Below, one piece after another: positions 21,128 to 61,803 of a stretch of DNA of 64,000 nucleotides (its first letter is position 1; each line of letters opens with the position of its first letter). A program made the position numbers and the translations under genes. Location of the stretch: positions 22,305 through 86,304 of IMG/VR virus record IMGVR_UViG_3300023184_000072, one strand, 5' to 3'. Below the pieces are notes generated by a model. That model saw nothing but the letters and a program-made list of their open reading frames with translations. It was not told the origin of the DNA and ran no database searches. The DNA is from a virus.

Positions 21128-24100
21128 TTATAGATTTTTAAAAGCTTTAACTATGTTACTATTTAAGTTTTTATTCTTAATAGTTTTTCCATCTCTAGCA
21201 GTACTCTTTTTTCCTTTAGAGTGTACACCTATAATATTTCCTTCAGAATCATATGAGAATTCTTTACCAGCTGCAAGTCCTTTACCTTTAGTACCAGATG
21301 CTACACCTTTTCCTGTTGTATCAAAATCTATATATCTAGGAAGTTTAATAATTCTACCATCAGGACCAAATGTATAATCTGGATGTTCAGCCATTCCAAT
21401 ATTATACTCCATGTTCTCTTTTTTGTTAGCAGCTTCTTTAGCATATAATGATGTTAATGCAGCTTCTGTAGTAGCTTTAGTATTAGATTTAGCTTGTGCT
21501 AGTTTATTAGCTGCATCCATATCTATTCCTAAGTTTCTAGCTCTATCTTGATTAACAGTGTTTATGTTATCATTATATACTCCTTGGTATCCTTGTTGGT
21601 TAATCTCAAATTCTTTAGAACCTATTTGATTCATAGCATCTGCTACACTAGCCATTATAGCTGATTGTGCTGCAGGATTATTTCCAGAATTCTTTACAGC
21701 TTCTCTAGCTTGAGAAAGAACTGCATTTCTATCCTTATCTGCAGAATATTTATATGGGGTTTTTAACATAGAATACATATGATTTTCAGCTAATCCTTCA
21801 ACTTGATTATTTGCAAGAGCATATAACTCAGGATTGATTTGATTACCTAATGGCATATTGAATGCAGGATACAATCCTCTAATTAAACTACTAGCTGCAG
21901 ATGCCCAAGGAAATCCTTTCTTAGGAGTTTCTTCTATTGCTTCAAGTTCAGTAGCAGCTGGTTTAGTTGGTGTTGGAGTGATAGTTGGTGCTACTGCAGG
22001 TGTTGCATTTTTATCAATAATAGAATTTAATATTGTATGATAAGGTCCCACTTTTTTATCAGAAGCTAATTCATAAGCTTTAGCTATTTTTCCTGACATA
22101 GTTTTTTCTTTATTTAAAACAGCTTTGACATCTTCTGCATCTTGTCCAGAATAGTTTTCAAGATCACTTATTAATTGTTTAGCTATTGTAGGATCAGAAA
22201 ATGCTTTATCTCTTTTAGGTCCCCATTGTGTTTCATAATTTGAACCTTTAAAAATATCTCCTGCTGTATCTGGTGCATTATAATCTATTGAACCAGGAAG
22301 AGTTCCTTTTACTGCATATGTACCATCTTGAGCTTTTATTGTTTTACCATTTTTAGCAACTTGAGAAAGTTCTCCTTTAGCTAATGTATGACTCACTTCT
22401 CCATTCTTAGCAAACTTCTCTTGAGAAACTTCTTTACCTAATAGGTTAGTTAAAAAATCAGTTGTTTGATGAATATGATCTTGGTAAGCAGCAAGATTTT
22501 CTTTGTCTTTTGCTAGTTGTTTTAATTTCATATTAAGTCCTAGTGTTTGCACTTCTTTTGTTTTATCTCCTAATGCTCCTATTGCTGTATTAGATTTAGG
22601 AACATCACTTGTTATTTTTTCTAACTCACCTGTATATTTTTTTTCTTGAGGAACAATTATATTATTTACAACATGTTTAACTTTTTTGTTAGCATATTTT
22701 TCAGGTAATTGGAATTGTTCTAACAAATCTTTATTAGTATTAAGATTACCATATACAACAGCACCATCATTTGTTATAGAAATAGGTTCATTAGTTTCTA
22801 TTTCTACATCTGGTTCATCTCCCATGTCTCCACCATCTTTCATTATAGAAAGTCCTATACCTGTTCTTCCTTGTTCATCTTTTTGGAAATGAGAATTACC
22901 ATATGCATTATATGTAAGTCCTTCTCCTTCTGAATAAGGATTGTATGATACAGGTTTTACACCTTCCCCTCCAGGAAGATTTCCACCCCAATGAGTTTTT
23001 AATTCTCCACCATCAGCATAAGTTTCCATAGCTCTTTCACTTGGAGGAGTGTATTCTTTTAAATGTCCACCAGCTCTATATTTATGTGCATAGTCAGCAA
23101 AGTCTTCTGCAGTGTGATCACCAAACATTGCAATCACTTGAGGATTCCAATCATTACTAACCCAACCACCTTCTTTTCTAACACTTCCAAATTGTCCCAT
23201 ATTTTTCCACATAGAATTATCCATTATTCTTTGTTGTGTGTTAGCATTGCTTTGAGTTAATTTATTTATTTTTCCAGCATCACCAAATGCTTGATCAAGT
23301 CCTCCTCCTACTAATTGTAAAGCTAATCCTGCTCCTGGGAATGCCATATCTGCTAATGGAGCAAGTGCTCCTGCTGCTTGAAAACCAGCATTATTATTAT
23401 ATCCAGCTCCTATTAAATTACTACCTAAACTATTGATAGGTCCCATTATATCCATTCCACCACCAGCTGCTCCTTCAAGATCTCCACCATCAGCATATTG
23501 TTTAACTTGATCAAGATCATCATATAATGTACCAGGAGCAAATGTATTAGAAATTTCTCCACCATCTTTATACATAACAAAGTTAGGAGTGAATGGTTGA
23601 TTTAACATTCTAGGTGCAGCTTGTCCTAATTGTTTAGCTCCTTGTCCTAAATATCCTGCAGCTCTAGATCCTGCACCTTCTCCAATAGCAGTAGGAAATG
23701 CTTCATAAGAAACTTCAGGTAAACCTGATAATAATGTAGCAGCATTTAATGCAGCTTTAGGAGTAAGTTTTAATCCTTTCTTAATATGACTAAGGATTCT
23801 TTGTTTATCTGTTTTGTTTGGATTATATCTATTAGCCATAACTTCTTTTCTGAATGCTTCAGAAGTTTCATCTTCTCTAGTTCCACTAGGATTAAGCACA
23901 CTCTTAAAATCTCCAAATGCTTTACTAGGATGAGCCATGTAATATAAAGGTCTTTCTCCTAATAAATAATCATCATATTCTGCTTGAGATCTTTTAGCTT
24001 CTTCTTCTCTTTGTGTTTGATTTCTTTTATCAGTAGATAACATTGCATCACTACCCTTGTATTTAGGTTTACCTTTAAAGAAGTCTTCATAAGATTGTAT

Positions 24101-60524: not shown

Positions 60525-60550
60525 ATTTGGTTAATTTGTTTGTTTTATTT

Positions 60551-60587
60551 ATCCCTGTAGATTATATTTGCAGGGATATTTATTTAT
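60551..60587 (+). terminator. Hairpin just before the tmRNA
   Basis: ATCCCTG (60551-60557) pairs with CAGGGAT (60571-60577), followed by ATTTATTTAT. It probably ends the small-gene operon. Because TTAATTTG, close to a -7 box, lies upstream at 60529-60536, it could also be part of the tmRNA precursor leader. Confidence 0.5.
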
Positions 60588-60672
60588 GGGGGTGACTGGT
60601 TTTGACAGGTTACCAATAATTAATACAATCAGCCAGAGAGATAACTGTAAACTAAGGTGAATTTAATTAAAT

Positions 60673-60780
60673 GGCAAAAACAATTCTCGTGTTGTGTCTC
60701 TAGGAGATTACGCACAAATCGAAGCTAACATGAATACAGTATTCTCTTTATTAGGAGAAGAAGTCCTTGTAGCAGCCTAA
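60673..60780 (+). other. tmRNA tag reading frame (35 codons)
   Basis: From the GGC at 60673 an open frame runs to TAA at 60778-60780. It encodes GKNNSRVVSLGDYAQIE at the start, continues through a middle part, and ends LLGEEVLVAA. Bacteroidota tags usually start GENN or similar and end in ALAA, so the first codons and the C-terminal AA are consistent, while 35 residues is unusually long. A shorter tag starting at GGA 60754 (GEEVLVAA) cannot be excluded, because the resume codon depends on structure. Confidence 0.6.
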
Positions 60781-60890
60781 ATTGAATAAGATTTCTCTAT
60801 TAGATTAAATAGAGTGGTGGAAACGTTGAGCTGAGCTTGACCCTATAAGCTGTATAAATTGTATTAACGAAAGTAGTTTGGACGTGGGTT

Positions 60891-61586
60891 TGGAAATTGG
60901 ACCCATTACATAGGAATATGTAATTAAAAATTGCTTGAATTGCTGGAACGCTAAGTCAGAAATGATATGCCAATCAGCAGCCAAGCTCACTAGAAGAAGT
61001 GAGAAGGTTCAGAGACTAGGGACACTAAGGTGAGCCCACAGTAAGCAACATCTAGAACAGATGATGATATAGTCCGATCCCTACAGAAATGTAGGAAGAA
61101 AGAATAGTCTTTCATAGGCTAACTTTCTTATAGCTTGTTTATTTGTGTATTTACCATTTCTAACGGTAACTACATCATGGTACTTCAAGACTGTGTTTAT
61201 ACGATGTAACTTTTTAGGATGGTGAGAATCTATAAGTCTACAAAATTTTAAACACTCTTGATTGCTATTACATGTTAAAGAATAACCTGTAGCATGGTTT
61301 TCTTTTCTAGAAGCTTTTGTTGATAGATGTAATTTTATATTATGTTCTTCTAACATATATTTTTGAATCTCTTCAAGGATATTAATGTATGTGTTAGTAA
61401 AATCTAATCTAATTGTTTTATACAATTCGTTTTTAGATTTCTTACATAGTGTAATTGAACCATCAGCATCAAAGAAGCCTGAAATGTATTGTAGTGTCAT
61501 GATAAATATGTTTTTAGATATGGTGTAAATCTACAACATGTCCTAGACATATGCAAGTAAAGTGACAACAAGTTATTAACAAAATG
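60891..61586 (+). mobile_element. Group I intron in the tmRNA T-loop (696 nt)
   Basis: Core helices can be drawn. P1: exon TGGGTT (60885-60890) with GACCCA (60900-60905), a U-G pair at the splice site. P2: TTACATA/TATGTAA with a GGAA loop (60906-60923). P3: TTGCTT (60931-60936) with AAGCAA (61043-61048). P4: TGCTG (60941-60945) with CAGCA (60975-60979). P6: CTCAC/GTGAG (60986-61003). P7: GACTA (61014-61018) with TAGTC (61070-61074). P8: CATCT/AGATG (61049-61063). P9: CCTACA-GAAA-TGTAGG (61080-61095). The 3' end is G61586, as required. The inserted endonuclease ORF lies after P9. Boundaries come from pairing plus restoration of the T-loop and agree with each other to the base. Confidence 0.92.
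61081..61500 (-). CDS. LAGLIDADG homing endonuclease inside the intron, antisense (139 aa)
   Basis: Residues 5-15 (YISGFFDADGS) match the LAGLIDADG motif, with acidic Asp11 and Asp13. Only one copy is present, so the enzyme should act as a homodimer. The remainder (LEEIQKYMLEEHNIKLHLST, then TNKQAIRKLAYERLFFLPTF) fits the alpha-beta fold and length of single-motif members. The gene is read from the strand opposite to the tmRNA and intron, and its stop codon lies in the P9 hairpin. Such enzymes cut intron-less alleles and spread the intron. The likely target is the tmRNA T-loop. Confidence 0.88.
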   Translation of the reverse strand: MTLQYISGFFDADGSITLCKKSKNELYKTIRLDFTNTYINILEEIQKYMLEEHNIKLHLSTKASRKENHATGYSLTCNSNQECLKFCRLIDSHHPKKLHRINTVLKYHDVVTVRNGKYTNKQAIRKLAYERLFFLPTFL

Positions 61587-61604
61587 CGACTCCCACCACC
61601 TCCA

Positions 61605-61773
61605 CTCATAATGCTGATTATCAATCAGTTAAAGAAAGCAGTTGCTTGATGTCAAATATGTACAGCAACAGACATTAGAGAAATTTGGCTTCTCATGAAT
61701 GTTAAGTCCTTTCCACACAGAGAAGGAGTTGAGTACTTTATGGTTTGGGTTTTACTAGTGCCAATCTCAACAT
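61605..61773 (+). other. Short gene-free stretch after the tmRNA
   Basis: These 169 bases between the tmRNA 3' end and the terminator show no convincing frame. They are presumably the 3' trailer of the tmRNA precursor, removed during maturation. I see no tRNA-like fold. Confidence 0.35.
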
Positions 61774-61803
61774 AAAGGCTATCAGAAATGGTAGCCTTTT
61801 TTA
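61774..61803 (+). terminator. Intrinsic terminator of the tmRNA unit
   Basis: AAAGGCTA (61774-61781) pairs with TAGCCTTT (61792-61799), followed by further T residues and ATTTT. It is the first strong terminator after the tmRNA. Confidence 0.8.

Follow-up and report, generated by a model that had tools for sequence, protein, structure and literature searches.

A group I intron with an antisense LAGLIDADG gene in the T-loop of a phage tmRNA gene

Introduction

tmRNA is the RNA that rescues stuck ribosomes. Phage-encoded tmRNAs have been described in mycobacteriophages and Bacillus phage G (PMC4131195), in phage Melnitz (PMC9004378) and in Cellulophaga phage Calle (PMC8776804). Introns in the T-loop of bacterial tmRNA are well documented in the accessible text of a 2025 survey (PMC11915505), which bears out what the original prediction discussed below had stated for some bacterial tmRNAs. 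That text places all introns at "position 3", between T-loop bases 2 and 3, in class Bacteroidia, states a maximum tmRNA intron length of 700 bp and counts 79 phage tmRNAs, and its main text is silent on introns in them. Phage tmRNAs and position-3 T-loop introns are each known, and as far as we found their combination is unreported; our literature search, which covered openly accessible main texts, turned up no phage tmRNA described as carrying an intron.

Here, we analysed 64,000 nucleotides of a phage (the window; positions 22,305 to 86,304 of IMG/VR record IMGVR_UViG_3300023184_000072, which has 86,304 bases). The original prediction, made from the letters alone, was that a phage tmRNA gene at 60588-61604 is split in its T-loop by a group I intron. 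Comparison loci are given by L numbers.

Results

The window carries a one-piece tmRNA gene interrupted inside its T-loop

Read from the sequence, window positions 60588-61604 (+) form a one-piece tmRNA gene that is interrupted inside the T-loop. Its exons and the nearby terminator candidate are:

60588..60890, + strand: tmRNA exon 1, 303 nt, with the 5' acceptor strand, the TGGTTTTGAC motif, the mRNA-like region, the pseudoknot region and the 5' half of the T-arm to ...GTGGGTT
60588..60594, + strand: acceptor stem 5' strand GGGGGTG, pairing with 61597-61603; pair 3 is G·U, the alanine identity element
60884..60890, + strand: T-stem 5' strand GTGGG and T-loop bases 1-2, TT; the 5' splice site follows 60890
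61587..61604, + strand: tmRNA exon 2, 18 nt, with T-loop CGACT, CCCAC, acceptor CACCTCC and discriminator A
61774..61799, + strand: intrinsic-terminator-like hairpin downstream of the tmRNA (2 found in the scanned stretch against 0.4 expected)

The predicted tmRNA 5' end, 7-bp acceptor stem and T-arm that exists only when 60891-61586 is removed were confirmed to the base. The acceptor strands GGGGGTG (60588-60594) and CACCTCC (61597-61603) form 7/7 pairs with the alanine element G3·U70 and discriminator A61604, and no CCA is encoded, CTC following the discriminator. Removal of 60891-61586 joins GTGGG-TT to CGACT-CCCAC and yields the T-arm GTGGG-TTCGACT-CCCAC, whose loop has the tmRNA form TTCRANN. 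Acceptor pair 3 was G·U in 97/97 distinct phage tmRNAs examined, and the remaining acceptor and T-stem pairs varied in type with pairing kept; the perfect retention of pairing is partly by construction, as T-arm and acceptor pairing served to recognise most of the relatives. The tmRNA would, as a reasonable inference, be inactive until the intron splices.

While the gene is split, cmscan gave no match to the tmRNA model RF00023 in the window, whereas the 94%-identical intron-less relatives L032 and L086 scored 86.3 and 90.7 bits and intron-less relatives overall 81-93 bits, against a gathering score of 47. ARAGORN found no tmRNA in the window or in the in-silico spliced gene, a result that is uninformative because it likewise missed the RF00023-positive tmRNA of Flavobacterium phage FpV4. 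The permuted tmRNA model RF04321 matched the 5' part with 24.5 bits, below the cut-off, and was rejected as a local resemblance.

Several other elements were observed around this and related genes. A terminator-like hairpin at window 60550-60578 stops some 10 nt short of the tmRNA 5' terminus, and a short hairpin also lies directly 5' of the tmRNA in several relatives. Downstream, window 61631-61760 holds a conserved sequence (AGCAGTTGCTTGATG...CAGCAACAGACATT...) common to L014, L032, L037 and L114, where it lies 3' of the tmRNA or of a nearby tRNA; in L114 it shows the compensatory change GTTGCT/AGCAAC to GTTACT/AGTAAC, and it is possibly a structured RNA of an unrecognised kind. Lactococcus phages (AM1 and others; L215 1501-1542) also have the hairpin GATTTCTnnnTTAGATTAAnnnnAGTGGTGGA that lies within the tmRNA of the Bacteroidota phages (window 60788-60821); the Lactococcus phage copies lie ~80-120 nt upstream of an unannotated tmRNA detected by ARAGORN. 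In L028 and L064, the T-loop between GCGGC and GCCGC is TATCGTAT and not TTCRANN, an odd T-arm in an otherwise intact tmRNA.

The insertion is a group I intron with a single splicing solution

The intron features are:

60891..61586, + strand: group I intron, 696 nt, between T-loop bases 2 and 3 ("position 3"), TT^CGACT
60881..61096, + strand: group I ribozyme core, matched by RF00028 over the whole model (1-253); the match starts with ten exon bases
60900..60904, + strand: internal guide sequence GACCC, pairing with exon GGGTT

The RF00028 match at 60881-61096 (94.1 bits, E 6e-23, gathering score 50) was the sole over-threshold Rfam match of cmscan in the window, and one group I intron was found in the whole phage record. 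In the covariance-model check suggested with the original prediction, the intron model matched the split window and the tmRNA model matched intron-less relatives. P1 pairs GGGUU with GACCC and places U60890·G60900 at the 5' splice site, and the terminal base of the intron is G61586, as predicted from group I rules. We combined these rules into one pattern, comprising a 7-bp acceptor, discriminator A, C[GA]A after the terminal G, a 5-bp T-stem before TT and a 5-bp P1 ending in U·G. Exactly one solution, 60891/61587, was obtained in the 1.6 kb scanned downstream region, and any solution at all occurred in 3/2000 dinucleotide shuffles.

The guide covaries with the exon: in L113 and L040, exon GAGTT is matched by guide GACTC. 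In an alignment of 13 related introns, compensatory changes were found in 32/50 predicted pairs, supporting P1 to P6, P8 and P9; RNAalifold has no capacity for the P3/P7 pseudoknot, and its outermost three pairs were not trusted.

The intron encodes an antisense LAGLIDADG endonuclease

One gene inside the intron had been overlooked in the original prediction:

61081..61500, - strand: gene for a 139-aa LAGLIDADG homing endonuclease, on the strand opposite to the intron; the 3' end of the gene runs into P9

The 139-aa protein matches PF00961 (29.7 bits, cut-off 23.1) and PF14528 (29.5 bits, cut-off 22.5), with the LAGLIDADG motif YISGFFDADGSI intact. Between relatives the gene has a dN/dS of 0.12-0.36, and by this measure the endonuclease is under purifying selection. 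The single LAGLIDADG motif suggests that the enzyme is probably a homodimer, and the near-palindromic T-arm would suit a homodimeric LAGLIDADG enzyme.

The tmRNA encodes an unusually long candidate tag

The following reading frame was identified in exon 1:

60673..60780, + strand: tag reading frame, putative resume codon GGC, tag GKNNSRVVSLGDYAQIEANMNTVFSLLGEEVLVAA, stop TAA; an in-frame stop lies upstream

The phage resume context TTAAATGGC matches the host resume context, with host TTTTAAATGGCGAAAATAAT aligning with phage AATTAAATGGCAAAAACAAT; therefore, GGC at 60673 is the most likely resume codon, and the predicted tag has 35 aa. A short frame starting one base further on (GCA, AKTILVLCL*) was rejected, since the GGC frame stays open and conserved in relatives. 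Across the clade (the window and relatives L008-L126), tags would have a median of ~35 aa if the G codon resumes and share a conserved ANMxxVxxLI...xAA core, and host tags in sampled Bacteroidia are mostly 9 aa, e.g. GENNYALAA. In the ANM...AA core, codon differences between relatives read in frame are synonymous in 583 cases and non-synonymous in 669, versus 172/1089 and 75/1150 in shifted frames, and on these counts the core is under codon-level constraint. The part of the tag before ANM shows little such constraint, so the tag may instead start at the A of ANM, at 60724.

Close relatives lack the intron

Using the 5'-half tmRNA signature AGAGATAACTGN{0,8}AACTAAGGTGAA, we found at least 119 matching stretches in viral contigs. 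Among the matches listed, 114 were readable to the T-arm; 110/114 were uninterrupted and 4/114 (L040, L043, L102, L113) were split at the same place. The tmRNAs nearest to the window among the matches listed, L032 and L086, share 94% identity with it over ~320 nt and are without the intron, and in L014 the window's junction is identical and uninterrupted (GTGGGTTCGACTCCCACCACCTCCA). Relatives of this kind make the strongest proof of the split-gene reading a comparative one. The relatives known from culture are Flavobacterium phage FpV4 and Cellulophaga phages Calle_1, phi40:1 and phi14:2; among the records listed, a tmRNA is annotated in Calle_1 and its sister isolates only. Calle_1, phi14:2 and FpV4 lack the intron, and none of the isolates encountered has it.

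On an exon tree, a quick tree with several long branches, we counted ~10 changes of intron state, a figure that is not an unbiased rate as the intron sample was partly recruited by splice pattern. The window's two closest rows on this tree are without the intron. The window intron is 96% identical to that of L043, yet the window exons are closer to those of intron-less phages. Judged from these trees, the mismatch between exons and intron together with the ~10 state changes is the pattern of a mobile intron.

The same site is occupied in other phages by introns of different content

A second search pattern, consisting of exon, guide sequence and P4/P5, gave 31 matches in viral contigs and five in bacterial genomes. 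With cr128_1 (L005), the endonuclease relatives L127-L129 and the window counted in, 25 phage contigs have both splice sites at the same T-loop subsite; in five more (L102, L147, L150, L152, L154) the 5' side is present and the locus then ends. Near-copies among the intron-bearing contigs are L137, L143, L149, L155, L158, L160 and L162.

Four states of the intron were distinguished: gene-less, at 222-229 nt; with an antisense LAGLIDADG gene, at 696-747 nt (window, L040, L043, L113, L127-L129, L144, L153); with a sense LAGLIDADG gene (L156, and L147 up to the point where its locus stops); and with an antisense HNH-type gene (L005, L102). The 452-nt intron of L159 is intermediate between states. 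L113 and L102 have sister ribozyme cores with different endonucleases, which suggests exchange of the endonuclease genes.

In L137, L143 and L149, a free-standing antisense HNH-type gene lies directly 3' of a tmRNA with a minimal intron and is 45% identical to the gene inside the cr128_1 intron. This layout recalls collaborative homing. The viral contig of L102 carries, besides its split tmRNA, a hatchet ribozyme match (RF02678, 3304-3454, 75.1 bits).

Position-3 introns also occur in cellular tmRNA genes

The phage tmRNA signature had no match in 84,980 species genomes of bacteria and archaea; hence, the phage tmRNAs look like a clade of their own without recent prophage copies. Chromosomal tmRNAs with a position-3 intron were L133 (Bacteroidetes bacterium SW_11_45_7) and L164, in agreement with the Bacteroidia-only distribution given in the accessible survey text (PMC11915505). 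L133 scored 102.7 bits with RF00023; its tag, GESDYAMAA, has 9 aa, and its 240-nt intron holds no gene. Across 395 Bacteroidia genomes, 20 group I introns were listed, two of them in tmRNA (L133, L164), one of these two genomes being that by which the class was chosen; most of the others that were readable lie in tRNA genes. On a core-intron tree with weak support and two cellular rows, L133 and L164 are placed either close to the base of the phage introns or within them. As for the other bacterial splice-pattern matches, L130 proved on reading not to be a tmRNA, and L131, L132 and L134 gave no tmRNA candidate.

Terminase and capsid are closest to Leptolyngbya phage Lbo-JY46

The original prediction had spoken of a crAss-like phage, a label that is not established by the marker proteins. 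The terminase is 40% identical to that of Leptolyngbya phage Lbo-JY46, 31% to that of Cellulophaga phi4:1 (Lightbulbvirus) and 26-28% to those of Crassvirales, and the sole match of the capsid is Lbo-JY46 (25.5%), so that terminase and capsid are both nearest to Lbo-JY46 and not to Crassvirales. A Crassvirales member, cr128_1, does carry the same kind of split tmRNA. No SmpB match was obtained in the 86-kb record, which may be incomplete, and function of the phage tmRNA would therefore depend on the host.

Discussion

These results argue, with a probability of about 0.92, for a phage alanine-type tmRNA carrying a mobile, self-excising group I intron at one fixed point of its T-loop, TT^CGA, where the intron is tolerated and where strong conservation of the T-arm lets its endonuclease spread it. 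The central claim of the original prediction, a group I intron in a phage tmRNA T-loop, held up through the 94.1-bit RF00028 match, exact empty sites, exon-guide covariation and ~30 parallel cases. At the level of sequence, the intron fold, the exact empty sites, recurrence at the same site, endonuclease conservation and the restored tRNA-like end form the basis of this reading, from which we infer splicing in cells, homing, charging and tag use. Most likely, the ribozyme would excise itself from the precursor: guanosine would attack after U60890, exon 1 would then attack after G61586, and the T-arm would be restored. The mature RNA would receive CCA and be charged by the host alanyl-tRNA synthetase, and the charged RNA would work with host SmpB in trans-translation and append a long tag specific to the phage. 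During coinfection, the antisense LAGLIDADG enzyme could cleave tmRNA genes without the intron at their near-palindromic T-arm, and the intron would be copied in. The intron may persist because splicing makes it nearly neutral and because the endonuclease could drive its copying.

Could the intron instead be kept as a switch, its splicing or an antisense endonuclease transcript timing active tmRNA during infection? Most introns with an endonuclease gene carry it in antisense (window, L040, L043, L113, L127-L129, L144, L153, L005, L102), and an antisense transcript would span the 3' portion of the intron. However, most relatives are without the intron (4/114 with it among the matches listed in the unbiased scan), minimal introns have no endonuclease, and L156 and L147 encode theirs on the sense strand. 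This sporadic distribution argues against a conserved switch, which we regard as improbable.

A dead or poorly splicing intron in a tmRNA pseudogene, with the phage relying on host tmRNA, is slightly less probable still. With host tmRNA present, loss of the phage copy would be masked, and both ARAGORN and RF00023 leave the window gene unrecognised; against this stand the full-length RF00028 match with all core helices, the compensatory changes in related introns, and exon arms and a tag frame that are intact in a spliced gene 94% identical to intron-less relatives. That the structure is a chance match or an assembly artefact is very nearly ruled out: the window comes from a single metagenomic record, but a splicing solution arose in just 3/2000 shuffles, and ~30 contigs from many samples, together with bacterial cases, show the same site and refute this explanation.

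On the preferred reading of a mobile intron, the repeated phage tmRNA introns, with changing endonucleases in either orientation, suggest a mobile vehicle for a site class that the accessible text of the 2025 survey saw in Bacteroidia only (PMC11915505). An RNA parasite thus seems to move around tmRNA in phages and their hosts. More tentatively, and in our view with less than even odds, lytic phages of Bacteroidota may be a reservoir of circulating position-3 introns and endonucleases exchanged with cellular tmRNA genes; with their own long-tag tmRNA lineage, these phages may rewrite the fate of stalled-ribosome proteins, and the intron would parasitise this phage-specific rescue. The analysis also brings to light a large clade of phage tmRNAs, most of them unannotated, whose conserved predicted tags are unusually long. 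It prompts the question of what lytic phages gain from a ribosome-rescue RNA of their own. Since standard tools miss split tmRNA genes, phage tmRNAs are under-counted.

Compared with known systems, the window gene resembles the position-3 tmRNAs of Bacteroidia, as described in the available text of PMC11915505, in its insertion between loop bases 2 and 3, its boundary rules and its group I intron. Those genes are cellular, whereas here the gene is that of a phage and has an antisense LAGLIDADG gene and a predicted tag of ~35 aa. With the "position 7" tmRNAs, mainly of Bacillota, it shares a group I intron in the T-loop but at another loop subsite, and some tmRNA introns in the same survey text likewise carry LAGLIDADG genes (PMC11915505). 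It is also akin to the phage-borne ssrA genes. Calle_1 has the 5' signature of the window's tmRNA clade but, unlike the window, no intron; Melnitz has a permuted two-piece tmRNA in the accessible report (PMC9004378), unlike the one-piece window gene; and the text available for mycobacteriophages and Bacillus phage G describes no intron (PMC4131195). The uncultured crAss-like phage cr128_1 (MT774392.1, L005 2202-3518) carries a tmRNA that is missing from its annotation and that a group I intron interrupts at the site used in the window. Its intron is 869 nt long, above the 700-bp maximum stated in the survey text (PMC11915505), and has an antisense HNH-type gene instead of LAGLIDADG, and its tmRNA encodes the short tag GNTYRAAA.
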